Positions 7,484 to 47,597 are shown, counted from the stretch's first letter. The stretch is DNA of 64,000 nucleotides from Halohasta litchfieldiae (GCF_002788215.1 NZ_CP024845.1:2542001-2606000), one strand, 5' to 3'. Notes: generated from the sequence alone by a model not told the origin. Translations and numbers: made by a program.

Positions 7484-9925
7484 TCATTGCTTGTCAAGTT
7501 CGGTTTTGATTTTCCCCGCCGTGATCGGTAGGTCGCTGATTCGGACGTCGACGGCGCGTCGGATCGCGTTGCTCAACGCCGGTGGGACAGCATTGGTCGG
7601 GATTTCGGCGATCGACTTCGCACCGAACGGTCCCGTCGGTTCGTGGGTTTCGACTAAAATCGGTGTCAGCGGGGGCTGGTCGGACGTTCGAGGCATTCCG
7701 TAGTGGCGGAATCCAAGTGTCTCGGGTGTGCCGTCGTCATCGAACGAGAGGTCGGCACCGGTCGCCAGTTCGTAGCTCATATGCATTGCCCCAGTCACCT
7801 GTCCCTCTGCGAGATCAGGGTTGATCGCAACCCCGCAGTCGACGGCGAACGCGAGCTCGTGAACCTCGAACTCGCCGGTTCGTTCGTCGACAGTGATATC
7901 CGCGAACTGCGCGCCGAACGGAGGCGGGGACTCGTCGGTGCTATGACTCGCCTCGCCCATTATTTGTGCACGCACTTCGTCGCCGTAGATGGATGCATAG
8001 CCGATTTCTTCGAGTGTGACCGATTCGCCAGTCCGCTTAGAGGAGACTGCTCCGTCACGGGCTACAAGCTTCTCAACCGATTCATCAAGCAGTTGAGCGG
8101 CGAACTCGAAGAGTTGCTCCCGGGCGTCCAGTGCGGCCTTTTGAACCGCCTGTCCGGTCACGTACGTCGTCGACGAGGCGTAGGCACCGTAATCGAACGG
8201 TGAGATGTCCGTATCCGATGGTTGGACGACGATATCCTCGGGTGAGGTACCGAGCACCTCGGCGGCGATCTGCGACATCGCTGTATCGGCTCCTGTCCCG
8301 ATGTCGACGGCCCCCGTCTGAAGAATAAACGAGCCGTCTTCGTTCATTTTGATGTGTGCGGCCCCAAGCTCGTCGCCGGGGATGCCGCTACCCTGTGTCG
8401 CCAGCGCCATGCCACAGCCCCGATGAAGATGCTCCGCATCGGGTTGGTCGACCTCGTCCCAGCCGATAGCAGTTTTCCCCCGTTCGATACATTCTTCCAG
8501 ACCACAAGAGCGGATTTTCCGGCCGTACTCCCCGTCTTTGAGAATCCCCGAGGCGATGTCGAGATCACCCTCACCGATGTAATTCCGCGCGCGGAACTCA
8601 ATGGGGTCGATCTCCAGTTCGCGGGCAACCTCGTCCATATGCCCCTCGACAGCGAAATGTCCCTGTGGCGCACCGTAGCCACGCATTGCGCCCGCGATCG
8701 GCAGGTTCGTATGGACGGCATCCATCTCGAAGCGAATGTTCGGCGTGTGGGTGTACAGCGGCAGCGGTTTCTTCCCGATGGCACCGGCCGCGGTCAGGCC
8801 GTGGGGGCCGTAGGCACCGGAATTGGTCACTACCGACATATCGAGGGCGTCGAGTTCGCCGTCGTCGGTCACGACGCTCCGGACCTCGATGCGAGAGGGT
8901 CGACGCAGTCGCATCGCGTGGAACTCCTCGCGCCGCGTCGCCTCCAGTTTGACCGGCCGGTCGGCCGCCAGCGACAGCGCGAGCGTGATCGGCTCGATCA
9001 CCATGGACTGTTTGCCGCCAAATCCGGCTCCGACCTGTGGTTTCGTCACCCGGACGTCCCGGATCGGGACATCGAACAGATGTGCCAACTGGCGGCGCAC
9101 GTGGTACGGAACCTGCGTGCTGGTCACGAGGTGATACCGGTTGTCCTCGTCGCGGTGTGCAATCGTTGTGTGTGGTTCGGGGACACAGTGGGACTGGTAG
9201 GGTGTCTCCCATTCGGTTTCGACGACGGTCCGATCATCCCTCGTGGCTGCCGCCTCGAAAGCGTCGTCGACGTCGCCGATTTCGCCCAAAGCGTGGGCTT
9301 CGATGTTTCGTTCGTACGCCGCGCCGGGCTGTGGGTTTTCGATATCGTCCCGGTCGTGGATTTGTGGAGCAGCCTCGTCCGTTGCCGTCTCGGTATCGAA
9401 GACAGCGTCGTACTCGTCGTAGGTAACTGTTATCTGGCGCGCGGCAGCCCTCGCAGTGGCAGCGTCCTCGGCAGCGACCGCAGCGATAGGGTCACCGACA
9501 TAGCGCACCCGTTTCCGGAGGACGTGGAGATCCAGTGGTGAAGGCTCGGGGTACGACTGTCCGGCCGATGTGTACGGTTTATCGGGCACCGACGGCGAGT
9601 CTGGTGTGATAACCGCGTAAACGCCATCCATCTCTGCTGCGGCGCTCGTCTCGATATCGGTGACAACGCCGTGTGCGATCTCCGAGCGGACGACGGCTGC
9701 TTCTGCGAGGTTTGGGAAGGCCGCCGCGTGATCGGCCGTATATGTCGCCTCGCCGGTGACTATCTTGCGAGCGTCGCTTTTCTCTGTCCGACTCGATACT
9801 GACTCACGCTCGTCTTTCGGTTTTCTACCCCTCGGCTGTTCGTCTCCCGCGCCGTGAGGGGCGGTGTCCGCCGACGTCGACTCATCCGGCCGGCCGTTCT
9901 CGTTCGGCGTGTTGGGTCTGCTCAT
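7484..9925 (-). CDS. Xanthine dehydrogenase-type molybdopterin-binding (large) subunit
   Basis: An 813-residue Mo-MCD-binding large subunit of the xanthine oxidase/CO dehydrogenase family. Seen: the substrate and cofactor strand PQVGAGFGGKQSMVIEP, the GAMRGYGAPQGHFA motif, the QTGAVDIGTGADTAMSQ cofactor loop, and near the C-terminus KSIAEIPTNAVPPALSN, where the Glu corresponds to the catalytic base. The first about 60 residues are a hydrophilic, likely disordered extension before the usual start of the domain (VTGEATYTADH). The ATG overlaps the small-subunit stop by four bases. The absence of the CO dehydrogenase VAYRCSFR loop argues for a hydroxylase of purine-like N-heterocycles. The FAD subunit is not adjacent but is found at 19255. 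Confidence 0.93.
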   Translation of the reverse strand: MSRPNTPNENGRPDESTSADTAPHGAGDEQPRGRKPKDERESVSSRTEKSDARKIVTGEATYTADHAAAFPNLAEAAVVRSEIAHGVVTDIETSAAAEMDGVYAVITPDSPSVPDKPYTSAGQSYPEPSPLDLHVLRKRVRYVGDPIAAVAAEDAATARAAARQITVTYDEYDAVFDTETATDEAAPQIHDRDDIENPQPGAAYERNIEAHALGEIGDVDDAFEAAATRDDRTVVETEWETPYQSHCVPEPHTTIAHRDEDNRYHLVTSTQVPYHVRRQLAHLFDVPIRDVRVTKPQVGAGFGGKQSMVIEPITLALSLAADRPVKLEATRREEFHAMRLRRPSRIEVRSVVTDDGELDALDMSVVTNSGAYGPHGLTAAGAIGKKPLPLYTHTPNIRFEMDAVHTNLPIAGAMRGYGAPQGHFAVEGHMDEVARELEIDPIEFRARNYIGEGDLDIASGILKDGEYGRKIRSCGLEECIERGKTAIGWDEVDQPDAEHLHRGCGMALATQGSGIPGDELGAAHIKMNEDGSFILQTGAVDIGTGADTAMSQIAAEVLGTSPEDIVVQPSDTDISPFDYGAYASSTTYVTGQAVQKAALDAREQLFEFAAQLLDESVEKLVARDGAVSSKRTGESVTLEEIGYASIYGDEVRAQIMGEASHSTDESPPPFGAQFADITVDERTGEFEVHELAFAVDCGVAINPDLAEGQVTGAMHMSYELATGADLSFDDDGTPETLGFRHYGMPRTSDQPPLTPILVETHEPTGPFGAKSIAEIPTNAVPPALSNAIRRAVDVRISDLPITAGKIKTELDKQ

Positions 9926-10470
9926 TGGTCCTCACCACCGGGGTAGCAGTCACACCCGGTACACGACTGCCCATTGGGTATCCGACCGCCGTCGGCTGCC
10001 ACATCCGTCTCGCCCGCCACTCGGTCCGCGGCGTCAGCGACGGCATCAAGTATCTTCTCGTAGCCGGTACATCGACAGAGGTTCCCCGAGAGTGCGTCCC
10101 TGATCTCCGCTTCGTCCGGGTCGGGATTCGTTTCGAGCAGTCCTTTCGTCCGCATGATCATACCGGGAATACAGAAGCCACACTGGAGAGCCGCGTTGTC
10201 GACGAAGGCTGCTTGAATAGGATGGAGGTCGTCTTGGGTACCCAAACTCTCGATTGTCTCGACATCCGAACCATCGATCCGGATGGCCGGTTCGATACAC
10301 GACTTGATCGGCTCACCGTCGACGATGACAGTGCAGAACCCGCAGTCACCGGTGTTACAGCCCCGCTTTGCGCCGGTGTAGCCGGACTGGCGGAGAAGAT
10401 CAAGCAACGAATCCGAGCGTGCAGCCTGAAGCGTTACCGCTTCGCCGTTCAGTGTGAGGTCGATTTTCAT
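9922..10470 (-). CDS. Xanthine dehydrogenase-type 2Fe-2S (small) subunit
   Basis: A 182-residue electron-transfer subunit with the two [2Fe-2S] clusters of the family. The plant-type cluster ligands are C38, C43, C46 and C58 (GCNTGDCGFC...KSC). The second cluster uses C97 and C100 (CGFCIPGMIM) and C132 and C134 (LCRCTGY). Homologues end soon after the second cluster domain; this one has about 20 additional residues with a further CTGCDC group (C170, C173, C175), which is unusual. It is the first gene of the transcript small-large-ade-(cupin). The upstream region holds an AT-rich stretch (10545-10650) likely to include the promoter. Confidence 0.93.
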   Translation of the reverse strand: MKIDLTLNGEAVTLQAARSDSLLDLLRQSGYTGAKRGCNTGDCGFCTVIVDGEPIKSCIEPAIRIDGSDVETIESLGTQDDLHPIQAAFVDNAALQCGFCIPGMIMRTKGLLETNPDPDEAEIRDALSGNLCRCTGYEKILDAVADAADRVAGETDVAADGGRIPNGQSCTGCDCYPGGEDQ

Positions 10471-10874: not shown

Positions 10875-10945
10875 TGAACTACCTCACCCTACTCGCTAAC
10901 CGCTGACGCGGTTCGCTCCTTGAGGATGGGGCTTCCTGCTTCGAT
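10875..10945 (-). ncRNA. Probable omega/reRNA 3' scaffold of the TnpB element
   Basis: The last codons of tnpB and the following bases form the conserved right-end sequence of haloarchaeal TnpB elements. Reading on the minus strand it runs aagccccatcctcaaggagc, then a stem (accgcg/cgcggt-like), then gagtagggtgaggtagttcac. In studied TnpB systems this stretch is the scaffold of the guide RNA and the guide itself is the DNA just beyond the element end, here leftward of about 10874. The assignment rests on position and on a similar degenerate copy at 13444-13520. Exact ends are not known. Confidence 0.4.
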
Positions 10946-12130
10946 GACGCGCTTTGCAGATATAGGCGTATCCACAGGGAGCTCAGTCTCCACAGGCGTT
11001 GATTCGGAGTGTCCCACTCCTAGCTGTTTCAGGCCGCGAGAAAGGATGTTGATCGCCGCGTTTGCGTCTCTGTCGGCTTCAAATCCGCATGAGGGGCAGG
11101 AGTGTTCCCGCACCCATAGTGGTTTGTCTGTTTTCGCGCCACAACTGGCGCACTCTTTGGTCGTGTCCTTCGGATCAACTGCCACGAAATGCGCCCCTTC
11201 GCGTTCACACTTGTATTCAAGCATCCGCTTGAATGTTCCCCACGCCGCCGACGCTCGGTTCCGAGAGTTGCCCGGTAGTTCGACCAATCCCTTCGCGTCT
11301 AGGTCCTCAACGGCTACGAGGTCGTATTCGGTGGCGTAGTACGCCGAGAGCTTGTGCAAGAAATCTCGTCGCTTCCGTTTCAGGTCTGCGTGCCGCCGGG
11401 CGACGACCTTTCGCTGCCGCTCCCAATTGTTCGACCCGTGTTCTTTGCGTGAGAGATCGCGCTGGGCGCGTTCCAACCGCTCGCGTTCATCCGACAGATC
11501 AAGCGACTCCACAGCGGTTCCATCCGTATCGTGGGCGTATTTCAGTATGCCAACGTCGATCCCGACACACCGCTCGGGATCAGCTGGTTTTTCCGGCGTC
11601 TGTTTGCCGTCGACGACGAATGAAGCGAACCACTCACCGGTTGGTTCCTTCTTGATCGTGACCTCTTTTACCGTCATGTCGTCGGGTATCTCCCGGTGTT
11701 TCACGATAGGAATATCCGCAAGTTTCGATAGCGAAAGCACAGGCTGGCCGTTCTTACTATCAAACTCGAAACCAGACTGAACGTAGGTGAAACTGCGGAA
11801 CTCCTGTGGTGCTTTCCAGTTGAGGCTGCCGACGTTGTAGCTGTTCTGTTTCAACTCAGAGAGTGCTTTGATGCTGTCTTCGATTCGCATGACAGCGGCT
11901 TGTGCAACCGTCGAATACAGGTCGTTCAGTTCATCCCACCACTCTTTGAGATCGGTGAGTTGGTCACGAACCTGTCGGACACGCTGATTGAGCGTCCCCG
12001 CCGAGTCGGGGATTTGCTCAAATTCACCGAGTGCGTGGTTGTAGAGTTGCCTACAGGTGTCACGGTGATAATCCAGTAGCTCACGCTGTTTTGCTGTGGG
12101 GTTGAGCCGGAACCTGTAGGCGTAGTGCAT
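10889..12130 (-). CDS. tnpB: TnpB (RNA-guided nuclease of IS200/IS605-type transposon)
   Basis: A 413-residue TnpB with all key residues visible. The RuvC-like triad is D192 (CVGIDVGIL), E275 (LVAVEDLDAKGL) and D355 (EADRDANAAINIL). The zinc ribbon uses C327/C330 and C345/C348. The N-terminal helical domain starts YAYRFRLNPTAKQRELL. TnpB proteins are RNA-guided DNA endonucleases that help retain the transposon; the guide RNA is read from the tnpB 3' end and the flanking DNA. The reading frame is intact. No tnpA is present in the window. Confidence 0.93.
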   Translation of the reverse strand: MHYAYRFRLNPTAKQRELLDYHRDTCRQLYNHALGEFEQIPDSAGTLNQRVRQVRDQLTDLKEWWDELNDLYSTVAQAAVMRIEDSIKALSELKQNSYNVGSLNWKAPQEFRSFTYVQSGFEFDSKNGQPVLSLSKLADIPIVKHREIPDDMTVKEVTIKKEPTGEWFASFVVDGKQTPEKPADPERCVGIDVGILKYAHDTDGTAVESLDLSDERERLERAQRDLSRKEHGSNNWERQRKVVARRHADLKRKRRDFLHKLSAYYATEYDLVAVEDLDAKGLVELPGNSRNRASAAWGTFKRMLEYKCEREGAHFVAVDPKDTTKECASCGAKTDKPLWVREHSCPSCGFEADRDANAAINILSRGLKQLGVGHSESTPVETELPVDTPISAKRVIEAGSPILKERTASAVSE

Positions 12131-12243
12131 TGATCGTAGCTATTCGTCGGGGTCAGACGTTCGGACGATTTTCACATCTGCGCCACGCCACTGTTTTGGG
12201 ACGAGGACGTGTGCGCCGTTGCCGGTTGGTTTTACCTTGCCCT

Positions 12244-13312
12244 GAGGGTGTCATAGAATAGTTCTCATAGCGTGATGACGGTGCTTCCTGGATTGTCTCC
12301 GCGTTCGTCGTTGGTGATCGCAATAACGAGACGAAGGCACAGCGCGAGGAACACTTGTGCTCGTGCGTGGACGCGGCCTCGGGCGCGAACGTGCCCGAGG
12401 CCGCAGTCCTTGACGGCGTCGTTGGTTCGTTCGACTCCACTCCGGCGGTTGTACGTCTCGTCTAGCGTCGATTGCTTCAGCTGAACGTCCTCGCTGTGTT
12501 CGTCGATGCGGGCTTCGACCCTGTACTCGATGTCTTTCGGATCGTCGGTGTTTCGTGCGTTGTACGGAGCGACTGGCACGACCCCTGCGGCCAGCAGGTG
12601 GTCGTGCCAGCCGAGCGTGTCGTAGGCGCTGTCTCCAAGCATCCAGATCGGTTTCTCGACGGCGAGCGCGTCACACGTGACGCGCATCGCCGTCTCCTCT
12701 GGCGCTTGCTTGCTCTCGGTGAACTCCGCGGCAATCGGGATCTTTTGCCCGGTCGAGACGATCGTACAGCCGTAGCCGTGGTAGTACTCTTCGGCGGTTG
12801 GATCGTAGCCTTTCGACGCGTCTTGGTCGGCGGGCATCGTCCTCACGTCGGTGGAATCGATGGAGTAGGTCAAGTCGAGCAGGCCGCGGCAGGCGGCCTG
12901 CTCGACGAGGCGGTCGAAGACCTCGTCGACGACGTGTTCGAGGTCGGTGAGGAAGCGATCGACCGCGTCTCTCGACGGCGGTCGATCGAAGCCACAGCTG
13001 AGCCAGACGACCGTGTTCTGGAGTTCTCGCGTGACTGGACGGATGCCGTAGACGTTCTTGTAGTAGCAGTGCAGGAACGCTCGGAAGAGTGCTGGTGGGT
13101 GATGATCTCGTGTTCGCCCCCGGCGAGCGGGGGCGAACACATCGAATTCTTCGAGAAAGTCGAACTCAAGATGCTCGAACAACGCGAGCGTCTCGGTCGC
13201 CATTACATTGAAGAACTCGTCGATAGAAGTCTCCTCTTGCAGGATGCTGGCGCTCGTAGACACAGTTCCAACATCCTGCGTCTTCGTGTGTGACGCTTTC
13301 TATGACACCCTC
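12244..13312 (-). mobile_element. Complete DDE insertion sequence, about 1.07 kb, with target duplication
   Basis: The element is bounded by perfect 15-base inverted repeats (gagggtgtcatagaa at 12244 and its complement ending at 13312). It is flanked by a direct repeat of the target, ttgccct, at 12237-12243 and 13313-13319. The match extends by one base on each side (cttgccctg), so the duplication could be 7 to 9 bases depending on where the repeat is taken to end. It carries a single intact transposase gene. It sits inside the DUF2080 gene of a TnpB element. Confidence 0.88.
12265..13263 (-). CDS. DDE transposase (IS4/IS5-type fold)
   Basis: A 332-residue transposase with a DDE_Tnp_1-like catalytic domain. 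Visible motifs are the first Asp in YSIDSTDVRTMP, the second in WMLGDSAYDT, and the signature YNRRSGVERTNDAVKD supplying the Tyr-(2)-Arg-(3)-Glu triplet. The N-terminal domain has the conserved HHPPALFRAFL and VTRELQN region. The frame is intact and fills the element from end to end, so it may be active. Base composition is somewhat more GC-rich than the AT-rich flanks. Confidence 0.92.
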   Translation of the reverse strand: MSTSASILQEETSIDEFFNVMATETLALFEHLEFDFLEEFDVFAPARRGRTRDHHPPALFRAFLHCYYKNVYGIRPVTRELQNTVVWLSCGFDRPPSRDAVDRFLTDLEHVVDEVFDRLVEQAACRGLLDLTYSIDSTDVRTMPADQDASKGYDPTAEEYYHGYGCTIVSTGQKIPIAAEFTESKQAPEETAMRVTCDALAVEKPIWMLGDSAYDTLGWHDHLLAAGVVPVAPYNARNTDDPKDIEYRVEARIDEHSEDVQLKQSTLDETYNRRSGVERTNDAVKDCGLGHVRARGRVHARAQVFLALCLRLVIAITNDERGDNPGSTVITL

Positions 13313-13520: not shown

Positions 13521-13626
13521 AGAATCTGCTAATCCGAAGCAGAAGTTACTTTTATCCAATAGTAATTAACACCCTAAGTGTGTAAATTTTGTGGAACTGT
13601 GCACCGAGAGTGGCAGATCTGCTATG

Positions 13627-13665
13627 TTGTACACGCTTTGTACACACTGCGTAACAATATATAAG
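13627..13665 (+). promoter_or_regulatory. Operator-like direct repeat and TATA box upstream of the first rdfA-like gene
   Basis: Two copies of ttgtacac occur at 13627-13634 and 13638-13645, exactly 11 bases apart, so they face the same side of the helix. They are followed by a TATA-like aatatataag (about 13656-13665) some 27 bases before the ATG at 13690. The spacing fits a leaderless haloarchaeal transcript with a regulator-binding site directly upstream of the basal promoter. Confidence 0.5.
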
Positions 13666-13689: not shown

Positions 13690-14331
13690 ATGACTTCGGA
13701 CACCAGTTGTAAGATAGATGGTGTGATCGAGCGGTACGATCTCGAATCAGCCGACCCCATCTACGACTCGATCAATGAGGGGCTTCTTGCCCGCTGGACA
13801 GGCGCTGGCAAGCGAACGGCGATGGGGTATCGATCACTCACTGAGTGGTTCAACAAACGATTATTGCAGGTTGTGTATGACAAACACGGCCGTGAAACAC
13901 TCGGTGCAAGACTCGATAGCGACTATGAGATCCTCACAAGCGACGACGACCTCGTCGGTGAGGAAGTAACCGAAAGCTTGCGTGTCGACGGGATCGACAG
14001 TGATCGGCTTGAACGAGATCTGGTCTCGTGGGGGACAATGCGAACACATCTAAAAGAGTGTCTAGACGGCCACAAGGAACCGCAGACGGCAAGTACGAAC
14101 TGGGAACAAGAAAGTATCCGGAAAGCAACCGAGATCGCAGAGGAGAAAACGGAGTCGGCGCTTTCGGCACTCGCAAACAAAGGAACGCTCGCTGGTGGTG
14201 AGACCGCTGATGTCGACGTTCAAATCCAACTCAGTTGTCAGTCGTGTCCAACGCGAGTCCCTTTCGATGTCGCGCTGGAACGCGGGTACATCTGTGAAGA
14301 CCACAACACACAGCAAGTCTCTCGGAACTAA
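13690..14331 (+). CDS. RdfA-family protein (rod-determining-factor-like), copy 1
   Basis: A 213-residue protein of the haloarchaeal RdfA family, named for a gene needed for rod shape in Haloferax volcanii and normally encoded beside an SMC-related protein. Seen: an N-terminal conserved region with LARWTGAGKRTAMGYRSL and TEWFNKRLL, which matches MSLRDLADYFNRQLL in copy 2. A polar helical middle with WEQESIRKATEIAEEK follows, and a C-terminal Zn-binding-like part with CQSCPTRVPFD and YICEDH. The ATG sits just downstream of a TATA box. The next gene starts two bases after the stop. Molecular activity is not known; DNA binding or partner binding via the zinc site is inference. Confidence 0.75.
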   Translation: MTSDTSCKIDGVIERYDLESADPIYDSINEGLLARWTGAGKRTAMGYRSLTEWFNKRLLQVVYDKHGRETLGARLDSDYEILTSDDDLVGEEVTESLRVDGIDSDRLERDLVSWGTMRTHLKECLDGHKEPQTASTNWEQESIRKATEIAEEKTESALSALANKGTLAGGETADVDVQIQLSCQSCPTRVPFDVALERGYICEDHNTQQVSRN

Positions 14332-14333
14332 CC

Positions 14334-16115
14334 ATGGTTTGGACAATCGATATCGAGCGGATCGCCGGAATCCTCCACGGGAGTGCAACCATCCAACCAG
14401 GTTTGAATGCTGTACAGGCCGCAAACTGGCAGGGCAAATCGAGCTTCGTCGAGGCGGTCAAAACGGCCCTCGGGACCTCGACCGAGCTGACAGAAGGAGC
14501 GGACTCGGGTCACGTCGACCTGCAGACACCAGCCGGGGATACCACGGTGCGGCTCGTTCGCAACGGGTCGACTGTTAGCCGTGAGGGAACGCCGTATCTC
14601 GACGACGAATACGACGTTATCCGGGCTGAGCTGTTCGCCTGTCTGGACGAACACAACGAGATCAGGAGAGCCGTTCGACGGGGCGACAACCTCGAAGAAG
14701 TCCTCTTGGAGCCGTTGGACTTCCAGAACATCGACGAGCAGATCGCCGAGCTGAAACGCGAATGCGAGCGTGTCGAGTCCGAGCTTTCGCAGGCCACCGA
14801 GGCAAGCAAACGACTGCCGAGCGTCCAGGAGAAAGTCACGAGACTCAACAGAGAAATCGAGGAGCTACGTGAGCAGCGCGAGGCTATCGAGCCGGGCGAA
14901 GAGGGTGAGGACTCGACACAGCAACAGCTGAACCAAGCCCGGTCCGACAAGCGGCAAGCAGAAACCCGGGTCGACCAGCTCGAACAGAGCATCGAACGCA
15001 CACGAAACCGGCTCTCGGAACACCGTACGGAACTCGACGAACTCGATGTCCCGGATCACGAGAACGTCGACGAACAGCTCGAACGTGTCCGAGCGGAACT
15101 GGATGATGTCAAGCGGGACGCGGAGATCCTCCAATCGCTGTATTCTGCCACCGAGATGGTTCTCGACGAAAGCAGGCTTGACCTGATTACGGATGTCCAG
15201 CGCGACATCGCTGGCGACACGGTCACCTGTTGGACCTGTGGGAACGATACCACGCGAGAAGGCATCGAGTCACAACTTGACGCACTCGGAAACCAACTGA
15301 CAGAACACAGAGCAGCGGCCGAACAGCACCGCGACAGGGCCGAAGAACTCGAAGCCCGCCGTGAACAGCAAAAGCAGATACAGCACCGCGAGGAAGAACT
15401 CAAAGCCGACATACTCGAACTCGAAGAGCAACTCGCCGACAGACAACAGAGTCTGGCGGACACACAGGAGCGACTGGACGCCGCGAGCACACGCGCCGAC
15501 GAACTGGCCGAGACGGTCGACGAGACGATGTCGGAGCGCTCCGACATCGAGAGCGAAATCAAGTATCGCGAGGCCGAACTTGACGATGCGACGGCCGAAC
15601 TCGACGAACTCGACGCGAGAGCCGACAAAATCGACAGACTCGAGACGGAACTGGAGTCGATGCGAACCGAAATCGAGGATCTCAGAAGCCGGAAAGATCG
15701 AGTCAAACGCGAGGCGCGGACCGCCTTCGATCAGGCAATTGACGATATCGTCTCTCGGTTCGAAACGGGGTTCGAGTCTGCCCGGCTCACCGCCGATTTC
15801 GACATTGTCGTCGCCCGCGATGGGCGCGAAGCCAGTCTTACGGCGCTCAGCGAGGGCGAACTGGAACTCATCGGGTTCGTAGCGGCGCTGGCTGGCTGGC
15901 AGGCGTTCGACGTGGGAGAGTCCGTCCCGCTGATAGTCGTCGACAGCGTTGGTGGCCTTGACGATGAGAATCTGCATACGCTCGTCGAGTATCTCCGGGA
16001 TCGGACAGAGTACCTCGTCTTCACTGCCTATCCGGAGTACACTGATTTCGACGGTCATCGAATCGATCCCACTGTTTGGACCGTCGCAAACGAAGGAACG
16101 ATCAAAACCAACTAG
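14334..16115 (+). CDS. Archaea-specific SMC-related ATPase (Sph/Rad50-like) with zinc hook, copy 1
   Basis: A 593-residue SMC/Rad50-type protein: N-terminal nucleotide-binding half with a Walker A variant ANWQGKSSF (K35, S36), two long coiled-coil arms, a CWTCG zinc hook at C299/C302 in the exact middle, and a C-terminal half with the ABC signature LSEGELELIGF (from L505) and Walker B PLIVVDSVGGLDD (D537). In the Walker B the usual Glu after Asp is Ser. The coiled coils are short compared with true SMC or Rad50. The hook would join two molecules through zinc. It is coupled to the RdfA-like gene (two-base gap). Such pairs are linked to cell shape in Haloferax; a DNA-tethering role is inferred from architecture. 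Confidence 0.88.
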   Translation: MVWTIDIERIAGILHGSATIQPGLNAVQAANWQGKSSFVEAVKTALGTSTELTEGADSGHVDLQTPAGDTTVRLVRNGSTVSREGTPYLDDEYDVIRAELFACLDEHNEIRRAVRRGDNLEEVLLEPLDFQNIDEQIAELKRECERVESELSQATEASKRLPSVQEKVTRLNREIEELREQREAIEPGEEGEDSTQQQLNQARSDKRQAETRVDQLEQSIERTRNRLSEHRTELDELDVPDHENVDEQLERVRAELDDVKRDAEILQSLYSATEMVLDESRLDLITDVQRDIAGDTVTCWTCGNDTTREGIESQLDALGNQLTEHRAAAEQHRDRAEELEARREQQKQIQHREEELKADILELEEQLADRQQSLADTQERLDAASTRADELAETVDETMSERSDIESEIKYREAELDDATAELDELDARADKIDRLETELESMRTEIEDLRSRKDRVKREARTAFDQAIDDIVSRFETGFESARLTADFDIVVARDGREASLTALSEGELELIGFVAALAGWQAFDVGESVPLIVVDSVGGLDDENLHTLVEYLRDRTEYLVFTAYPEYTDFDGHRIDPTVWTVANEGTIKTN

Positions 16116-16322
16116 CACTTCCTGCCATGGGGGGGTCGGATGGGCCAGTATAAACAACGTTCAGTTCACCGGTGGCACTCGGCCGCCATAGTATGAGTTC
16201 GTTTGTCCGGTTCTATTCGATAAAACGCGACATCTGTAACAAGTAATCGAATTACTGTGGACGTATGGGGCAATATTTATGTGATAGTAGGAAGGAGAAG
16301 TATTCAACCGGAGATCGCAAGT

Positions 16323-17372
16323 ATGGTTGCCAGTAACAGTTTCAAAGAGCTTTCAGAGGTACTCGCGCGTTTAGAATCATCAGGGACCACAGTCCAGCAT
16401 GCCGAAATGGACCAGGACCTGTTGAACACAGACGGCGAAGTCACAGCCGAATTAGCCGTCACTGTGCCAATTTTGACGGACGAAGAGATGGGAGAGGTCG
16501 TCTCAATAAATGCCAAGGACGCCACCATCGAAGACGGAGACGTCGCAGTCGACCTGACAGTCACGGTGTCGGCCGATGGATCGAAACACACGGAAAATGC
16601 TGGCACACCGCGTGAAACCCTCGCTACCACAAGTAGTCAATCCAACGTGGAGACAGTCCCCGCATATAAAAACCCGGATGCACTGCAGGCGGTCTACGAG
16701 CAGTACAGTTCCTTCCCGAAAATGACGGAGGCACTCGGGGTCGACGTTACCTCGGAGACCGTCCGTCGACACATGATCGAGTATGATATCCATGATCCGG
16801 ATGATACCAGACCGAAGTCGTACATCGATGCTAGGGCACCCAAAGAAACGGATGACGACACGGACACTGGTAGCTCTTCTACACCTGCCACAGCCAGTAC
16901 CGAAACCGAGCCACCAGCAGATACGGACCCTGAAACCAGTGTATTGACGACGGATGAACAGACTAACACGTCCTCAGGAGTCGATGATGACGTCGCAACC
17001 CAAGAGGCAACGAGTGCAGTTACTGACGGCGGAAACATAACAGTAGACAGTCTTAACAAGCAGTCACCATTCGCTACCGCGCAGGTACGAGACGTGGTAA
17101 CCGAATCATCTACACAGCAGTGTGGCGACCCGACTATGAGGAGCGATATCGATCTTCCCGAGACGCTCACTGTCGCCGAACTCGCAGACGCGATCAACCA
17201 GTCACAGACAGTCCACGGGGTAACCCAACACATCGGCATGAACCGGAGTGCTGCTAAACAGTTCCTCCAAGAGTTCGGTCTCATCGACTTCGTCTCTCAT
17301 CGCCTCGCTGCTGATCAAATTACCGTCTCACCGAACGAGGTTGTCAGACGAATTAACGCCGCTGGCCAGTGA
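16323..17372 (+). CDS. Uncharacterised HTH-like protein next to the SMC-related gene
   Basis: A 349-residue protein not assigned to a named family. Start ATG 16323 is preferred over an in-frame ATG at 16257 because the latter adds a weak, hydrophobic, non-acidic tail. Residues about 1-110 are beta-rich and acidic. Around residue 120 comes NPDALQAVYEQYSSFPKMTE followed by ALGVDVTSETVRRHMIEY, which looks like a helix-turn-helix. A long Thr/Asp/Glu-rich linker follows. The C-terminal about 80 residues hold a second possible HTH (TVAELADAINQSQTVHGVTQ, then HIGMNRSAAKQFLQEFGL). Two DNA-binding-like ends on a flexible linker beside an SMC-like ATPase suggest a DNA-loading or regulatory partner; that is inference. 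Confidence 0.7.
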   Translation: MVASNSFKELSEVLARLESSGTTVQHAEMDQDLLNTDGEVTAELAVTVPILTDEEMGEVVSINAKDATIEDGDVAVDLTVTVSADGSKHTENAGTPRETLATTSSQSNVETVPAYKNPDALQAVYEQYSSFPKMTEALGVDVTSETVRRHMIEYDIHDPDDTRPKSYIDARAPKETDDDTDTGSSSTPATASTETEPPADTDPETSVLTTDEQTNTSSGVDDDVATQEATSAVTDGGNITVDSLNKQSPFATAQVRDVVTESSTQQCGDPTMRSDIDLPETLTVAELADAINQSQTVHGVTQHIGMNRSAAKQFLQEFGLIDFVSHRLAADQITVSPNEVVRRINAAGQ

Positions 17373-17466
17373 AAAGAGCATATTGCCGCCCAAATACTCG
17401 ATATAACCCACCCAGACAGTCGAGTGTGGGAAAGAGGTATCAGTAATACGGACGATAATCAGTACA

Positions 17467-18270
17467 ATGGCAACAATTCGGATTCGTGAATGGACAAAAA
17501 AGCAAATCGAACGGATTAGGGAAACCGAATCACATTCCTCCAACGATTCCGTTATTAAGTCGTTGCTGAAAGATCGCGAACTCGCCAAGTTCGCAGGCGA
17601 GCGCGTCGAAACAACCGACAGAGCGTCCGTAACAGAGACCGCCCCACCGCTTGACAAGCCTTTCGACGATCTAACTGTTATCGATGAACTGTCAGCCCCC
17701 GATAATGGAGTCGTGTTTCTCTGGTGTCCGAACTGTGCGACTGAAATAGCCCATCTGACTGTTGAGGGTCAGATGAGCGTTTCCGCGTTCGAAATGGAGT
17801 GCCGACATTGTCTCACCAATCTCGACCATCATGCAATCGTTGCTATCGAAATCGGCTACCCGATCGAGCAGAAGCTCACTGAAGACGATCTCGAAGCGGA
17901 TCTCAGAGCGTGTGTCATCGACTACTGGGATCGAATCCTCAGACAACAGACAGAGAGTGCCACAGACGAGGCAGCAGGTATCGAACGACTTGTCTGGCAA
18001 CTCGGCGAGTACGCACGGGAGTTCGCTTGGGAGTGGCCGGAAGACGTTCCCGTGGTCGGATTTGAGGGTGGGAACACCTACCGGAACTCGACCACCGACG
18101 AATGGATCGAAGTCATCGAACAAGTCACCGAAAACAGGAACTCCCTCGATTCGTTCGAGGTCAAGCGGTACACCGCTGATAGCGACCCCTCCGATGTCGA
18201 CACAGAAATCATGGACAGCAGTACCATCGTCGACCTCATTGCGACGCGAAGCCTGCTACTGGAGAGCTAG
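17467..18270 (+). CDS. Uncharacterised Zn-ribbon protein with N-terminal RHH-like segment
   Basis: A 267-residue protein, family unknown. The first 45 residues (TIRIREWTKKQIERIRETE, then SNDSVIKSLLKD) have the strand-helix-helix pattern of ribbon-helix-helix DNA binders. In the middle a zinc ribbon is formed by WCPNC and, about 26 residues later, ECRHC. The rest is acidic and helical with several Trp residues. It is the fourth gene on the + strand after rdfA and the SMC-related gene, 94 bases after the HTH-like gene, and has its own AT-rich upstream sequence. The combination of RHH-like and Zn ribbon points to nucleic-acid binding. Confidence 0.68.
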   Translation: MATIRIREWTKKQIERIRETESHSSNDSVIKSLLKDRELAKFAGERVETTDRASVTETAPPLDKPFDDLTVIDELSAPDNGVVFLWCPNCATEIAHLTVEGQMSVSAFEMECRHCLTNLDHHAIVAIEIGYPIEQKLTEDDLEADLRACVIDYWDRILRQQTESATDEAAGIERLVWQLGEYAREFAWEWPEDVPVVGFEGGNTYRNSTTDEWIEVIEQVTENRNSLDSFEVKRYTADSDPSDVDTEIMDSSTIVDLIATRSLLLES

Positions 18271-18342: not shown

Positions 18343-18438
18343 CGTCGCAGCGTCGACGTACCGTCGGGAGAGTCAATATCGACATATTAGGAGGACAGTC
18401 GCAGTGTCGACATATCATCGGGAGAGTCGACGTCGACA
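18343..18438. repeat. Imperfect direct duplication at the 3' end of the MobA-like gene
   Basis: A segment of about 42 bases beginning gtcgcag(c/t)gtcgac occurs at about 18343-18384 and again at 18397-18438, 54 bases apart. The second copy encodes the C-terminus of the MobA-like protein (VDVDSPDDMSTLR). The first would encode VDIDSPDGTSTLR beyond the stop. It looks like a tail duplication or a leftover of an older C-terminus. Confidence 0.7.
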
Positions 18439-19049
18439 AGCACGCCACGGTCGCCGGTTTCGACGAGCACGGCTCTGTCGTCGTCGAGTAAGATCTCACG
18501 ACCACCGGTGTCACCAGTTGCATCCGCTAACGCCTCGAAATGGCGACGACCGAACAACACCGGGTTCCCGCGAGCCCCGTTGCAGGCGGCTGCCAAGGCC
18601 TCACTAACGCCAGTACGATATGCAGCGACGAGTAGGTCGAAGCTCTCGGCCTCAACGGTCGGCATATCCCCGAGTGCGAAAACAACAGCATCAGCTCCGT
18701 GATTCCGAGCTGCCGTGATGCCCCGACGCACCGAGGTGGACTGTCCGGACGCGTACCGGTCGTTGTGCACAATGGTAACCTCGAAATCACTGACGGCCCT
18801 TCGTACACGTCCGGCGTCGTCGCCGACGACCACCACGACCTTATCTACGGTCGACCGTAACAGCGTGTCGACCACGTGAGACACGAGCGGCGCGTCCGCC
18901 CACTCGGCGAGCAGTTTGTTTGTCGCTCCGAATCGGGAGCTAGTGCCAGCTGCAAGGACGACACCGACAACTGTCGACTGGCCGCCAGCCACGCCGCCGT
19001 CGAGCTCCTCGAACGGCGGTTCGACGACTGGGAACTCCTTGACCGCCAT
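18387..19049 (-). CDS. MobA-like molybdenum cofactor nucleotidyltransferase
   Basis: A 220-residue NTP-transferase domain protein (MobA/MocA type) that attaches a nucleotide to molybdopterin for hydroxylases of the xanthine oxidase family. Seen: the nucleotide-binding GVVLAAGTSSRFGATNKLL, VVVVVGDDAGRVRR, DAVVFALGDMPTV with the metal-binding Asp, and NGARGNPVLFGRRHF. The ATG at 19049 is chosen over one at 19136, which would add a Cys/Trp-rich tail unlike the family. It is divergent from the FAD-subunit gene 206 bases away. The context makes a MCD-forming (cytidylyl) activity likely. Confidence 0.85.
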   Translation of the reverse strand: MAVKEFPVVEPPFEELDGGVAGGQSTVVGVVLAAGTSSRFGATNKLLAEWADAPLVSHVVDTLLRSTVDKVVVVVGDDAGRVRRAVSDFEVTIVHNDRYASGQSTSVRRGITAARNHGADAVVFALGDMPTVEAESFDLLVAAYRTGVSEALAAACNGARGNPVLFGRRHFEALADATGDTGGREILLDDDRAVLVETGDRGVLVDVDSPDDMSTLRLSS

Positions 19050-19240
19050 TGCAGAGTTCTCTGGTAACACAAAATAATAAGCAATCGGGTCGCAGACGTG
19101 GCAAATATACCACATAGCCACGTTGAACCGTGACACACACCGTTGCTAATGTGGCTGGCGACGTTTTAAAATCGGTTGATCTCGACCGTGTTAATATGTT
19201 ATTAATAGACGAGCGGCTTCGGGGTAGGCTCACTGCAAAC

Positions 19241-19254
19241 GGAGGTCGTGTGTG
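19241..19254 (+). promoter_or_regulatory. Shine-Dalgarno that fixes the FAD-subunit start
   Basis: A perfect ggaggt at 19241-19246 lies eight bases before the ATG at 19255 and five before an in-frame GTG at 19252. The spacing favours the ATG. Most other genes in the window lack such a site. Confidence 0.6.
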
Positions 19255-20139
19255 ATGGACGCCGACGCGTTTGAGTACCGAGAGGCCGAAACCATTGCAG
19301 ACGCCATAGCTCTGTTGGAGGAGCATCCTGATGCAGAGGTGCTGGCCGGGGGCCATACGCTACTGCCGAACATGGAAATTGGCTTGATCGGCCCGGATAC
19401 AGTCGTCGACATTGGCGGCATCGATGCTATGCAGGGTATCGATCGCGATGGCGATGTAATGAACATCGGTGCGTTGACGACCTACAGCAAGATCATCGAC
19501 ACGGACGAACTCTGGGACGGCGCAACCGTGCTGACGGAGGCAATCCGCGAAATCGGCGACACCCAGATTCGGAACCGGGCGACTGTTGGGGGAAACCTCG
19601 TCCGTCCGGAACCGACATCGGACCTCTCGGCCGCAATCATCGCTAGCGACGCAACGCTCATCGCAACGAGTCGCCGCGGCGAGCGCCGGATCGACGCCGA
19701 CGAGTTCTTTCTCCCGAAGCGTACGACAGCCCTCGAAGAGGACGAACTGCTCACTCGAATCGAAATTCCACTCGTGGGCGGGGCCGCCAGCGGTGCCTAC
19801 AGCAAAACCCAAAGCCCGTCTGCGAGGTACACATTGCTGGGTGTTGCGGCCCGTATGTCGGTCGACGACGGGTTGGTGTCGACGGCCCGCGTGGCTGCCA
19901 ACGGGGTGATGAATCACGGCATTCGCCTCGGCGGGGTCGAAGACGCTCTCACAGGGAATCCACTTGATACCGAAACAATAGCGGCCGCAACGACACAGGC
20001 AACAGCTGGCATCGACGAGTCACAGATGATAGACGACAGCCAAGCGTCGGCGACGTTCCGTATGCAACTTCTTGAGGTGTATACACAACAGGCACTCGAA
20101 CGGACGGCCGAGCGTACCGGGCTCACCATTCCGGCATGA
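19255..20139 (+). CDS. Xanthine/CO dehydrogenase-type FAD-binding (medium) subunit
   Basis: A 294-residue CoxM/XdhB-type FAD subunit. The FAD-binding motifs are AGGHTLLPNMEIGLI near residue 30 (AGG-HS/T-L type) and TVGGNLV near residue 110 (NRATVGGNLVRPEPTSD). The C-terminal CO_deh_flav_C domain is seen in SARYTLLGVAARM and the final MQLLEVYTQQALER. It supplies the third subunit missing from the minus-strand xdh operon at 7.5-10.5 kb. It is followed by the XdhC-like gene 98 bases downstream. Confidence 0.92.
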   Translation: MDADAFEYREAETIADAIALLEEHPDAEVLAGGHTLLPNMEIGLIGPDTVVDIGGIDAMQGIDRDGDVMNIGALTTYSKIIDTDELWDGATVLTEAIREIGDTQIRNRATVGGNLVRPEPTSDLSAAIIASDATLIATSRRGERRIDADEFFLPKRTTALEEDELLTRIEIPLVGGAASGAYSKTQSPSARYTLLGVAARMSVDDGLVSTARVAANGVMNHGIRLGGVEDALTGNPLDTETIAAATTQATAGIDESQMIDDSQASATFRMQLLEVYTQQALERTAERTGLTIPA

Positions 20140-20237
20140 TACCGCACGTATTCACCCACCGAAGGATTGCTATGGCACAGTCGACACGGAGACCAACGGA
20201 TGATCACTGTTAGACAGTCGACACCGAGGACTGACGA

Positions 20238-21404
20238 ATGACAACTGGAGACTGGAGCGCCCCCGAAACGGAAGTGTTGGATGCCATCGTCTCGGGTATC
20301 ACTAATCAGCAAGCCGTCCTCGCAACGGTCGTTGCCGTTGAGGGGAGTGCCTACCGGCGTCCGGGTGCGAAGATGGTCATTGCCGACGACACCGGCATTG
20401 GTGCGGTCACCGCTGGCTGTCTGGAAGACGAGGTGCTCGCACTCACTGAGCAAGTGCTGGCCGACGGAGCACATATCGAGCGGTTCGATCTTACCGGTAC
20501 CAACGATGTCTGGGGCCTCGGTGTTGGTTGCAATGGTGTGGTCGACATCCTGCTCGAACCACTAACTGTAGAGTACCGACCGGTCGCCCACGCACACGAA
20601 GTTGCCGAAGACATAGCCGTTCTCACTGTGCTCGACGGGGAGCGGTCGGATGTCGAACAGGGCGACCATGCCTTCGCTCATCCGACCGGAGCAGCCGATT
20701 ACCGAGGGCTCTCGTTCGAAACACCGACAACTGACTGGCCCGACGAGCTGATCTCAACACTGACCAAGCCGACCGCTGAAATGCTGGCAGCCGATGCCTC
20801 TGACAGTATTACCGTTAACTGGGAAGGCAAGACAGCCGAGATTTTCGTCGACAGCATACACGCGCCGCCCGAACTGGTCGTCTTCGGGAGCGGACACGAC
20901 GTTGTCCCGGTCGTGGAACTGGCAAAACAGGTCGGCTTCAGTGTCACTGTCGTCACGTTCCGGGGAGCGGCCGACAACAAGCGGTTCTCCGCAGCTGATC
21001 GTGTCATCACGACATCTCCCGCGGAGCTTCACGAGAGCCTTGCGTTCGATACCAACACCTACGCCGTCGTGATGTCACACAACTTCGTCGACGATCGGCT
21101 CACCCTAGAGGAGTTGCTTGCGACGCCTGTCGAGTACGTCGGGATGGTGGGCTCACGAGAACGGTTCAGAGAGATGCAGGACGCGTTCGCTGCGGAGGGG
21201 CATCGGTTCAGCGCCTCCGAACGGGATCGCATCTATACCCCGGCTGGCCTTGATCTCGGCGGCGGAACTCCGTTCCACATCGCTCAGAGCATCGTTACAG
21301 AGATAACAGCTATCCACCATGGCCGTGATCCACAACACCTCACAGACCAGACTGGACCGATCCACGCACGGTCGACGGTCACACAGTCGGTCGACGATGA
21401 CTGA
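20238..21404 (+). CDS. XdhC/CoxI-family maturation protein
   Basis: A 388-residue XdhC-family protein, which binds molybdenum cofactor, helps its sulfuration and inserts it into xanthine-dehydrogenase-type enzymes. Seen: the N-terminal XdhC_CoxI domain with VAVEGSAYRRPGAKMVI, GAVTAGCLEDEVLAL, and the Rossmann-like C-terminal domain with LVVFGSGHDVVPVVELAK, VVMSHNFVDDRLTLEELL, YVGMVGSRERF and IYTPAGLDLGGGTP. Location with the MobA-like and FAD-subunit genes supports a role in maturing the hydroxylase encoded at 7.5-10.5 kb. Confidence 0.92.
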   Translation: MTTGDWSAPETEVLDAIVSGITNQQAVLATVVAVEGSAYRRPGAKMVIADDTGIGAVTAGCLEDEVLALTEQVLADGAHIERFDLTGTNDVWGLGVGCNGVVDILLEPLTVEYRPVAHAHEVAEDIAVLTVLDGERSDVEQGDHAFAHPTGAADYRGLSFETPTTDWPDELISTLTKPTAEMLAADASDSITVNWEGKTAEIFVDSIHAPPELVVFGSGHDVVPVVELAKQVGFSVTVVTFRGAADNKRFSAADRVITTSPAELHESLAFDTNTYAVVMSHNFVDDRLTLEELLATPVEYVGMVGSRERFREMQDAFAAEGHRFSASERDRIYTPAGLDLGGGTPFHIAQSIVTEITAIHHGRDPQHLTDQTGPIHARSTVTQSVDDD

Positions 21405-34148: not shown

Positions 34149-34769
34149 ATGGATACGACACCGAACGCTGCGTCCGGTCGAACCGGAAAAGTAGCACGTC
34201 TTCTCAGCGACGATACCATTGCAGAGGTCGGGGATGAGTTAGTAGAGCGGTGGACAGCCGAAGCCAACCGTATGAGTCTCCGCGACCTCGCGGACTACTT
34301 CAACAGGCAGTTGCTCGAAGCACGGCTCGACCAGCAGCGAATCGACGTGCTTCCCGGAGAAATCGAGAACATGTATCGCTTGCTTACTGACGACGAGGTG
34401 ACCAGCGGAACGCGGATTCAAGTGAAAAACCGACTGGGTGAATATGGGGTCGATACCGAGACTCTGGAGTCGGATTTCGTCAGTCGACAGGCGATCCACA
34501 CCTATCTAACGAAACACCGCCAGGAGAGCTACGACGAACCCGATCCCGATGAGATCGTCGACCGGCGGCTCGAAGAACTCCAACGACTCAACAGTCGACA
34601 GCAAGCCGTAACCGAACAGACGGTGTCGACACTCCAAAACAGGGACCGTCTCGATCTGGGAGAGTTTCAGGTGCTGTCTTCGGTTCAGATCCAGTGTACT
34701 GACTGTGGTCGACAGTTCGATCTGCCAACCTTGGTCGACCGTGGTCGCTGTCAGTGCGACACCTCCTGA
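34149..34769 (+). CDS. RdfA-family protein (rod-determining-factor-like), copy 2
   Basis: A 206-residue paralogue of the protein at 13690. Shared layout: GKVARLLSDDTIAEVGDELV, RWTAEANRMSLRDLADYFNR, LLTDDEVTSGTRIQVKNRL, a polar helix with DEIVDRRLEELQRLNSRQQA, and a C-terminal zinc-site-like QIQCTDCGRQFDLP with RGRCQC. The C-terminal site here has four Cys instead of the Cys/His mix of copy 1. Copy 2 looks closer to the usual rdfA form. The SMC-related gene follows after 137 bases, a looser spacing than in copy 1, with its own AT-rich upstream box. Confidence 0.78.
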   Translation: MDTTPNAASGRTGKVARLLSDDTIAEVGDELVERWTAEANRMSLRDLADYFNRQLLEARLDQQRIDVLPGEIENMYRLLTDDEVTSGTRIQVKNRLGEYGVDTETLESDFVSRQAIHTYLTKHRQESYDEPDPDEIVDRRLEELQRLNSRQQAVTEQTVSTLQNRDRLDLGEFQVLSSVQIQCTDCGRQFDLPTLVDRGRCQCDTS

Positions 34770-34906
34770 GACACACAACAGCTGTCTGAAAACGTAGCTG
34801 TGAGTCTCACGAGTAGAGTATGAAATAGGTATGACAGCCATAGAGACGTCATAATAGCGGACAGTAAACCAACCTTTTAATAAATTCATCCTGTAGGTGT
34901 TGAAGA

Positions 34907-36862
34907 ATGAGTCACACACGTCCCGATCAACAGGCTACTCAGATCGAGATCACCAACATCGGTGGGATCGATCAGTCATCGCTGACTCTGCACTCCGGTG
35001 TGAACGTTCTCGCTGGCAAAAACGCGACGAACCGGACTTCGTTTCTGCAGGCGCTCATGGCCGTCTGCGGAAGCGAGCAGGCGACACTCAAGGCGGATGC
35101 CGATCAGGGACAGGTCACACTTTCGAGCGGAGACCAGCAGTACACACGCACGATCAGCCGACGAAACGGTGTGGTTTCGTACGACGGAGAGCCGTATCTC
35201 GACGATCCGATTCTCGCCGACCTGTTTGCCTTCCTGCTTGAGGACAACGAGGCTCGTCAGGCGGTCGCACGCGGGGATAACCTCCGCGAAATACTGATGC
35301 GACCGGTCGACACGGCGGCAATCGAGCGGGAGATCGAGGAGCGCCAGTCCGAGCGTGAAGAGATCGACACACAGCTACAGCGGCTCGATTCGCTCGAAGA
35401 ACAGCTCCCGACGCTGGAGGCCGACCGGGACGCACTCGAAGACGAGATCGCCGAGAAGAAATCCGAGTTGGCTGCAAAGAACAGTCAAATCGAATCGCTG
35501 GATACCACCGTCGACGAGACCCGCGAACAGAAGGACGCATACGAATCGAAGCTCGATGCACTGAGTCAGGCACGGCAGGAGCGCCAGCGGATCGAGAGGC
35601 GGATCGACTCCGAACGGGAGAGTATCGAGAGTCTCCGAACTGATCGAAATGAGATCGCCGAACAGGTAGCCGAGTACGACGCAGTCCCTGAGTCACGGAT
35701 CTCGGAGATCGACGGGGAAGTTCAGCATCTCCGCGGACAGATTCAGCAGATCAATTCGACTGTCAGTGATCTGCAGTCCGTTATCCAGTTCAACGAGGAG
35801 TTCCTTGCGGAAGACCAGCCGTCATCTCTCCAGACCTTGGATGATGATCCTGAATCGTCTGGGAGTGAGATCACCGAGCAACTGGTGAGTGATTCGACCG
35901 AGGTCACCTGCTGGACCTGCGGCAGTAACGTTGAGACGACACAGATCGACTCGACGCTCGACGAACTCCGGGCGATACGGAACGACAAGATGGACCAGCG
36001 ACAGACGTTCCAAGACCAAGTCGACGAGTTGGAAGCCGAGAAATCATCACTTGAACAGGCACAACAGACCCATGATCGACTTCAGCAGCAACTTGCAGAC
36101 GTCGAGAGAGAAATCGATGATCGCACAGCGAAACTAGACGGCCTCGAAGCACAGCAAGCCGACATACAGACGCGGATTGACACACTCGAATCCGAGGTCG
36201 ACGCTTTCGAGAACGTCGAACAAAGCGAGATACTCGACCTTCAAAAGGAGACGAGTCGGATCGAAGTCGAAATCGAGCAGCTTACGGCTGATCTCGAGAG
36301 CATCGAGGCCGAAATTTCCGACATCGAATCGCAACTCGACGACCGCGACCATCTCGAAGCCCAGCGAGAGCAGCTCAGTTCGGAGCTTGCAGGGCTCAGA
36401 ACGAAGATCGAGGATCTTCAAACCGACGCCGTCGACGAGTTCAACTCCCATATGGATTCCCTCTTGGATCGACTCGGCTACGACAACCTCGAACGGATCT
36501 GGATCGAACGCACCGAAAAGGAAGTACGAGAGGGTCGACGCAAGATCAGCAAAGACCAGTTCGAGCTACACGTGGTCCGCAGCACTGACTCGGGGACGGT
36601 CTACGAGGACGTGGTCGACCATCTCAGCGAAAGTGAGCGGGAACTCACCGGCCTCGTGTTCGCGTTAGCTGGCTATCTCGTTCACGAGGTGTACGACCAC
36701 GTTCCGTTCATGCTGCTGGACTCCGTGGAGGCCATCGACGCCGACCGTATCGCACGGCTCGTCGACTACCTCGGTGGCTACTCCGACTACCTCGTCGTTG
36801 CACTGCTGGAAGAAGACGCACGAGCGCTCGACGACAGCTACCCCCGAATCGAATCGATCTAA
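34907..36862 (+). CDS. Archaea-specific SMC-related ATPase (Sph-like) with zinc hook, copy 2
   Basis: A 651-residue protein with N-terminal ATP-binding part, coiled coil, CWTCG hook (C335/C338), second coiled coil and C-terminal part. The Walker A is the family variant AGKNATNRTSFLQ (residues 36-48), which lacks the Lys directly before Ser/Thr; copy 1 has the more canonical QGKSS. The signature is LSESERELTG (from L573), and Walker B PFMLLDSVEAIDAD (D605) again has Ser after Asp. Coiled-coil text such as EREIEERQSEREEIDTQLQ fills most of both arms. About 10 percent longer than copy 1. Pairs with the RdfA-like gene directly upstream. Confidence 0.88.
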   Translation: MSHTRPDQQATQIEITNIGGIDQSSLTLHSGVNVLAGKNATNRTSFLQALMAVCGSEQATLKADADQGQVTLSSGDQQYTRTISRRNGVVSYDGEPYLDDPILADLFAFLLEDNEARQAVARGDNLREILMRPVDTAAIEREIEERQSEREEIDTQLQRLDSLEEQLPTLEADRDALEDEIAEKKSELAAKNSQIESLDTTVDETREQKDAYESKLDALSQARQERQRIERRIDSERESIESLRTDRNEIAEQVAEYDAVPESRISEIDGEVQHLRGQIQQINSTVSDLQSVIQFNEEFLAEDQPSSLQTLDDDPESSGSEITEQLVSDSTEVTCWTCGSNVETTQIDSTLDELRAIRNDKMDQRQTFQDQVDELEAEKSSLEQAQQTHDRLQQQLADVEREIDDRTAKLDGLEAQQADIQTRIDTLESEVDAFENVEQSEILDLQKETSRIEVEIEQLTADLESIEAEISDIESQLDDRDHLEAQREQLSSELAGLRTKIEDLQTDAVDEFNSHMDSLLDRLGYDNLERIWIERTEKEVREGRRKISKDQFELHVVRSTDSGTVYEDVVDHLSESERELTGLVFALAGYLVHEVYDHVPFMLLDSVEAIDADRIARLVDYLGGYSDYLVVALLEEDARALDDSYPRIESI

Positions 36863-47580: not shown

Positions 47581-47597
47581 GTTCGGTATTACCGAAC
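47581..47597. promoter_or_regulatory. Palindromic operator-like site, site C
   Basis: gttcggtattaccgaac is a perfect 17-base palindrome around an AT-type centre, nearly the same as site A at 36937 and related to site B at 37032. Confidence 0.5.

Follow-up and report, generated by a model that had tools for sequence, protein, structure and literature searches.

What do an RdfA protein and an SMC-related ATPase, two families linked to cell shape in haloarchaea, do within a purine-catabolism island, and how might such an ATPase be placed on archaeal DNA? This question is raised by four consecutive genes in a stretch of 64,000 nucleotides of the Halohasta litchfieldiae genome (NZ_CP024845.1:2542001-2606000), here called the window. 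According to the account in PMC10869688, rdfA and sph3 of Haloferax volcanii (HVO_2174/HVO_2175) are adjacent, and 42 of 54 RdfA proteins are encoded next to an SMC-like gene; a first-pass annotation of the window had likewise treated the two genes as haloarchaeal neighbours linked to cell shape. The archaea-specific SMC-related proteins (ASRPs) have already been described as a family (PMC9389158). According to the summary in PMC9764264, coalescin (ClsN) of Sulfolobus carries a zinc-hook motif, and its occupancy opposes transcription: the protein accumulates at weakly transcribed loci and departs from those that are induced. The same 2022 review asks if loaders or partner proteins dedicated to coalescin exist (PMC9764264).

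Results

The four open reading frames claimed in the first-pass annotation are present on the + strand. The first gene, rdfA (13690-14331, 213 aa), encodes a member of the RdfA family, which matches the Pfam profile PF21811 above its gathering cut-off (E 4.7e-45; 154 bits vs 27; residues 7-202 of 213). The second gene (14334-16115) starts two bases past the rdfA stop at 14331, as had been noted, and its product is a member of the ASRP family according to a full-length match to the NCBIfam equivalog NF045487 (E 1e-136; 457 bits vs a cut-off of 300; residues 10-568). We define lineage Ia as the ASRPs that are at least 54% identical to that of the window. These proteins retain the ASRP motifs, namely Walker A (GKSS) at the N-terminus, the signature LSEGE and Walker B (hhhhD) at the C-terminus, and a CWxC hook in the coiled coil; the CxxC motif of the hook (CWTC in the window copy) is invariant in an alignment of 21 lineage-Ia proteins. 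In most aligned ASRPs, including those of Ia, the Walker B Asp is followed by Ser or Gly, where SMC and Rad50 proteins have the catalytic Glu. Because of this replacement, ATP hydrolysis by ASRPs may be slow or different.

Annotated relatives of these two genes are named 'rod-determining factor RdfA' and 'archaea-specific SMC-related protein', and those of genes 3 and 4 'hypothetical protein'. The open reading frame of gene 3 (P3) spans 16257-17372 (+), and alignment with 16 relatives indicates ATG 16323 as the likely start, which yields a protein of 349 aa (16323-17372) with two likely HTH regions and an acidic linker. The linker agrees with the earlier description of a protein with HTH-like ends; the HTH signal is weak, and the HTH_50 match lies in the middle of the protein (E 4e-5, 23.6 bits, below the curated cut-off of 27 bits). 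Other HTH families match some relatives in a scattered and weak manner, and a sequence search of the PDB with gene 3 gave a single weak match (E 0.006). Gene 4 (P4; 17467-18270, +; 267 aa) was described from its sequence and an AF2 model as having an RHH-like N-terminus, a zinc ribbon and a C-terminal beta domain. The proposed ribbon is borne out by a CPxC...CxxC motif that is invariant among relatives and by a ribbon-like region of the model at approximately residues 82-127. The RHH identity of the N-terminus is plausible from the sequence pattern; it has no Pfam match, and residues 1-64 of the model have a pLDDT below 50. No Pfam family passes for gene 4 as a whole, and every library searched leaves it unnamed. 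For both RdfA and gene 4, comparison with the PDB gave no significant fold match and no sequence match. The predicted model of RdfA (pLDDT 74) is mostly helical, and no known DNA-binding fold was seen in it; it neither shows nor excludes such a fold.

We searched 243 genomes of the order for the ASRP, gene 3 and gene 4, and lineage Ia was found in 24 genomes from nine genera and five families. Gene 4 occurs in all 24 Ia genomes and in 2 of the 219 others (Fisher p 4e-31), although 13 of the 24 belong to one genus and therefore represent fewer independent cases than this p value implies. Outside Ia, matches to gene 4 beyond its N-terminal stretch were found in G039, whose ASRP belongs to the sister group of Ia, and as a fragment in G207. 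A gene-3 relative is present in all 24 Ia genomes (the G117 copy is a remnant). The distribution of gene 4 thus upholds the view that a single RdfA-ASRP lineage has genes 3 and 4 as its dedicated partners. The full order rdfA-ASRP-3-4, for which a genome search had been proposed, recurs in four haloarchaeal families, including that of the window, and a fifth family has gene 3 inverted. Some cassettes do not have gene 3; in other cases genes 3-4 stand by themselves, with an rdfA-ASRP-4 locus approximately 31-36 kb away along the same replicon. Many copies reside on megaplasmids. In the cultured Haloarcula hispanica, plasmid pHH400 carries both loci, roughly 35 kb apart; the genes are HAH_RS18895 (RdfA), RS18890 (ASRP), RS18885 and RS18730 (P4) and RS18735 (P3). 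The first-pass annotation had named a wide occurrence of genes 3 and 4 without the pair as the pattern that would contradict it. This pattern was not found for gene 4 or for close gene-3 relatives, but distant gene-3 paralogues do occur in other loci, where some adjoin one-carbon genes or HTH_10 regulators. In a maximum-likelihood ASRP tree, Ia is monophyletic (support 100) and the g32 group is its sister (support 99), and each lineage that bears a palindrome (Ia and the canonA and SecY lineages described below) is a clade.

The genes around the Ia cassettes encode an SsnA-like aminohydrolase, an allantoinase-type amidohydrolase, adenine and 5'-deoxyadenosine deaminases, a xanthine permease and a nucleoside-type ABC transporter, together with xanthine-dehydrogenase-type subunits, MocA, XdhC and YqeC. 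A purine setting, defined as at least two purine-catabolism markers within the fetched locus, was found in 19/19 Ia loci examined, in 7/7 loci that have gene 4 without an adjacent rdfA-ASRP pair (six of them with genes 3-4), in 3 of 22 Ib loci (all three belonging to the g32 sister group) and in none of the 32 remaining ASRP loci; the marker families were chosen from Ia loci, and the contrast between Ia and the others is therefore somewhat inflated. The Ia cassette is embedded in selenium-dependent molybdenum hydroxylase purine clusters (ssnA, xdh, yqeB, yqeC, selD, mocA), for example on pHH400 of H. hispanica; in a limited literature search, no account of these clusters that includes an SMC-related or RdfA gene was found.

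The window cassette is flanked by xdhAB and mocA-xdhFAD-xdhC. The left flank (7484-10470, -; XdhA model E 6e-191) consists of a xanthine-dehydrogenase-type Mo subunit (7484-9925) and a 2Fe-2S subunit (9922-10470). The right flank consists of a MocA-type Mo-cofactor cytidylyltransferase (18387-19136, -; TIGR03310, E 7e-43) and, on the + strand at 19252-21404, a Mo-hydroxylase FAD subunit (19252-20139) and an XdhC-like maturation factor (20238-21404). The island extends to the left of the window with a xanthine permease, DadD and BMP permeases. Two transposase genes (10889-13263, -), one of the IS605 OrfB type (PF01385) and one of the DDE type (PF01609), lie between xdh and the palindrome described below. 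The nearest relative, Halorientalis marina (L195), keeps the order xdhA-xdhB, rdfA-ASRP-3-4, mocA without IS elements; therefore, these elements are a local insertion outside the system. The accessory role that had been read from them finds no support in this order or in the position of the cassette within purine islands in every Ia locus examined. The arrangement varies by lineage, with the cassette adjoining ssnA/allB, xdh/mocA or dadD/yqeC, and the association with purine genes persists.

Motif discovery by EM upstream of rdfA recovered a 21-bp palindrome in 15/15 regions, with the consensus TTAACAnnCTWAGnnTGTTAA. The window copy, TTAACACCCTAAGTGTGTAAA, is located at 13566-13586 and has a PWM score of 33.3, against 9.8 for the next best score near this site. 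In 29 loci scanned with the PWM, the palindrome was found upstream of rdfA (19/19 Ia loci) or, where genes 3-4 are on their own, upstream of gene 3, often doubled with the copies 56-71 bp apart; beyond these, sites appeared only in L131 and L132, two loci of the sister group. In H. hispanica, palindromes precede P3 (RS18735), and the rdfA promoter yields nothing above PWM 17. In the 3.33-Mb window genome, TTAACACCCTAAGTGTGTAAA is a single copy when at most one mismatch is allowed, and no second palindrome was found near the purine genes within 40-60 kb on either side. The strict Ia pattern has 20 sites in the 243 genomes, compared with 2 for the reversed control. Gene 4 is present in 15 of the 17 genomes with strict sites; G068 belongs to the sister group, and the G178 site is inside an unrelated gene. 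Distal sites, 34-45 kb from the cassette when the G110 contig is taken as circular, precede dadD in G110, G069 and G259, which represent two genera (40-45 kb), and a threonine-synthase-like purine-cluster gene in G039. The palindromes are approximately 90-330 bp from start codons. Promoter comparison also identified a second element at 13628-13662 (+), which consists of two overlapping copies of CGTACACnCTnCGTnA beside the TATA-like ATATATAA; in most Ia rdfA promoters, CGTACACnCTnCGTnA is at about -47 to -52 and adjoins the TATA box.

Related palindromes accompany other RdfA-ASRP lineages. The Ia matrix gave five matches with scores of at least 18 in seven control loci of canonA, a distant lineage without genes 3 and 4, and none at this score in 1.19 Mb of other controls. 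The canonA palindrome is ATAACRnnCTWAGnnYGTTAT. All 11 of its strict sites in the 243 genomes fall in genomes with a canonA ASRP (ten genomes; reversed control 0), on the same contig as the ASRP and 0.2-109 kb from it, with two such contigs reaching approximately 3.4 Mb, and most of them do not belong to the loci that first revealed the motif. The canonA sites examined are intergenic (24/24); most precede a gene by 100-330 bp, a few fall in convergent gaps, and several of the downstream genes belong to acyl-CoA metabolism. The SecY lineage, also without genes 3 and 4, has RACAAYnnCTWAGnnRTTGTY in 8/8 loci; 16 of the 18 strict sites in the 243 genomes are in genomes that carry this lineage (reversed control 1). 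The CTWAG core is common to the Ia, canonA and SecY palindromes, and the arms are lineage-specific; in the canonA and SecY lineages, the sites cluster close to the ASRP genes. Because two lineages without genes 3 and 4 have palindromes with the same core, the element follows RdfA-ASRP and not genes 3 and 4. No common palindrome was found in the divergent and mixed Ib groups.

The SecY-lineage pair (L091, L092, L093, L095, L133, L134, L136, L141) has an EMC3/TMCO1-like membrane protein as its neighbour, frequently together with a SecY paralogue. A candidate palindrome of the large canonB lineage, TTACAC...GTGTAA, lies up to approximately 120 bp upstream of ASRP or rdfA in 6/14 loci (L157, L160, L162, L163, L165, L167). 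Furthermore, L229 and L241 (G257 C1 near 57 kb and G164 C1 near 1576 kb) have a further RdfA-like gene beside a canonA palindrome, away from the ASRP locus.

Discussion

The RdfA-ASRP pair is known; genes 3 and 4 as its partners and the palindromic cis-element are new, and the purine setting and the lineage-specific palindromes are important additions. ParB-parS systems and SMC loading likewise link an SMC-type protein to a short palindrome that lies close to the gene and shares its replicon. This similarity is no more than a resemblance: unlike ParB-parS, the cassette has no ParA or ParB, and its sites, one to four per genome, are mostly upstream of metabolic-island genes. The Ia core is like rdfA-sph3 of H. 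volcanii in that adjacent genes encode the same two families; however, the account of the latter pair in PMC10869688 mentions neither genes 3 and 4 nor a cognate palindrome, and links the pair to rod shape rather than to a purine island. Similarly, coalescin is a small SMC-related ATPase with a hook motif from the same named family as the Ia ASRP, but it acts over whole compartments, and the accounts consulted describe neither a sequence-specific site nor an RdfA partner for ClsN (PMC9389158, PMC9764264).

We give about an even chance to the reading in which the cassette is a regulatory or DNA-organising unit dedicated to the purine-catabolism island, acting through a lineage-specific palindrome with genes 3 and 4 as co-regulators. 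The presence of a rare palindrome at the cassette's own promoter suggests that SMC-like proteins act at specific DNA sites and control a metabolic island. RdfA and ASRP, with adjacent genes and a common lineage, would form a conserved core that acts at the 21-bp palindrome with its CTWAG centre; the near-exclusive co-occurrence of core and palindrome is observed, and from it we infer binding. The core would autoregulate through the palindrome upstream of the cassette and, in some genomes, would also act on dadD or another purine-cluster gene at a distance of 31-45 kb. Between sites, the hook-bearing ATPase could form bridges or compact the island; transcription would be the target of this effect, and the island would stay weakly expressed until purines appear, in the way that coalescin opposes transcription. 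An inducible, repressive role is the most obvious expectation because coalescin, itself an ASRP, is enriched at low transcription and leaves induced loci. Genes 3 and 4 probably add promoter-level control; as DNA-binding co-regulators specific to the lineage, they may tune the same promoters, perhaps by way of the element beside the TATA box. A wider reading, which we offer tentatively and with somewhat less confidence, is that RdfA-ASRP pairs are sequence-addressed SMC-like systems. Each lineage would read its own palindrome (CTWAG core, own arms) within 0.2-109 kb around the gene, and the hook-dimerised ATPase would bridge or compact a catabolic island, making it a domain that can be switched. 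Genes 3 and 4 would be add-on promoter-binding factors of the purine lineage.

With its palindromes, the conserved partner RdfA and two lineage-specific proteins, the cassette is a concrete candidate for the placement of an SMC-related protein on archaeal DNA, and the lineage-specific palindromes and purine setting make the addressing of ASRPs to DNA directly testable. If the binding is confirmed, an SMC-type protein would be tied to the way in which individual metabolic islands are controlled, and the altered shapes of rdfA and sph3 mutants could be re-read as effects of gene regulation. Several observations count against the regulatory reading. The window genome has a single site; therefore, no bridging between palindromes can occur there. 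The spacing of 90-330 bp and the few canonA sites in convergent gaps are odd for a plain operator, and the RdfA model without a known DNA-binding fold and the H. hispanica rdfA promoter mentioned above also weigh against it. Moreover, the sister pair rdfA/sph3 is known, according to PMC10869688, for cell shape and not for metabolism.

It is possible, though on balance unlikely, that an ordinary transcription factor (P4 or P3 in Ia, other local factors elsewhere) uses the palindrome as its operator, and that the RdfA-ASRP genes, with an unrelated job, are simply regulated or nearby. The HTH matches of P3, the occurrence of its paralogues in other catabolic loci (two beside HTH_10 regulators), the presence of P4 in 15/17 strict-site genomes and the location of most sites upstream of genes all agree with such an operator. 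However, near-identical or same-core palindromes accompany ASRP lineages without P3 and P4, and we therefore reject a private P3/P4 operator as the whole story; furthermore, G068 and G135 have strong Ia-type sites in a purine cluster and no match to P3 or P4. We consider it improbable that the cassette is a switch of cell shape and motility like rdfA/sph3 of H. volcanii, that is, a paralogue that happens to be wired to purine availability. The families are the same, and deletion of rdfA or sph3 leaves disks only and no motility, whereas deletion of sph2 gives rods, in the accounts of PMC10869688 and PMC11276520. Nevertheless, among the loci examined, Ia was found in purine islands only, and it is far from the window's own second pair (~28% identity).

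A role in DNA segregation, plasmid stabilisation or anti-plasmid defence, part of which had been suggested in the first-pass annotation, is more doubtful still. The megaplasmid location of many copies, an ATPase of the SMC superfamily and same-replicon palindromes that resemble parS-like marks would suit it. However, profile searches found no ParA-type ATPase among the four cassette genes (a ParA gene near one Haloterrigena locus is outside the cassette), and the copy in the window belongs to a metabolic island on a 3.3-Mb contig that has no other site. The ASRP match to LmuB in the defence library (67 bits, vs 457 bits as an ASRP) reflects generic SMC-superfamily similarity, beyond which no PADLOC family was found, and rdfA, gene 3 and gene 4 gave no match to system-specific defence proteins (Lamassu, Wadjet). 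Since the cassette has no ParA, the SMC-like matches are generic and P4 has no phage relatives, we reject the defence and plasmid-partition readings; moreover, every Ia locus examined is in a purine-catabolism island. Least probable of all is simple hitch-hiking, in which the cassette spread with the purine island with no functional link. Gene clusters do move as blocks on megaplasmids, and many sampled genomes are close relatives, but the association persists despite the varying arrangement (ssnA/allB, xdh/mocA or dadD/yqeC), and sites recur at dadD promoters far from the cassette.

The window also contains a second RdfA-ASRP pair (34149-36862) of another lineage, approximately 28% identical, in a cluster with IclR, mandelate-racemase-like, sugar-kinase and aldolase genes. 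In G001/G002 (L096, L097), similar catabolic genes lie beside a pair of yet another lineage. The palindrome CTGTTCGGTAWTRCCGAACAG, which is near the second catabolic cluster, is common to the window (47579-47599), L096 (near 14101 and 14196) and L097 (near 12060 and 12156), and it is possibly an IclR-type operator.
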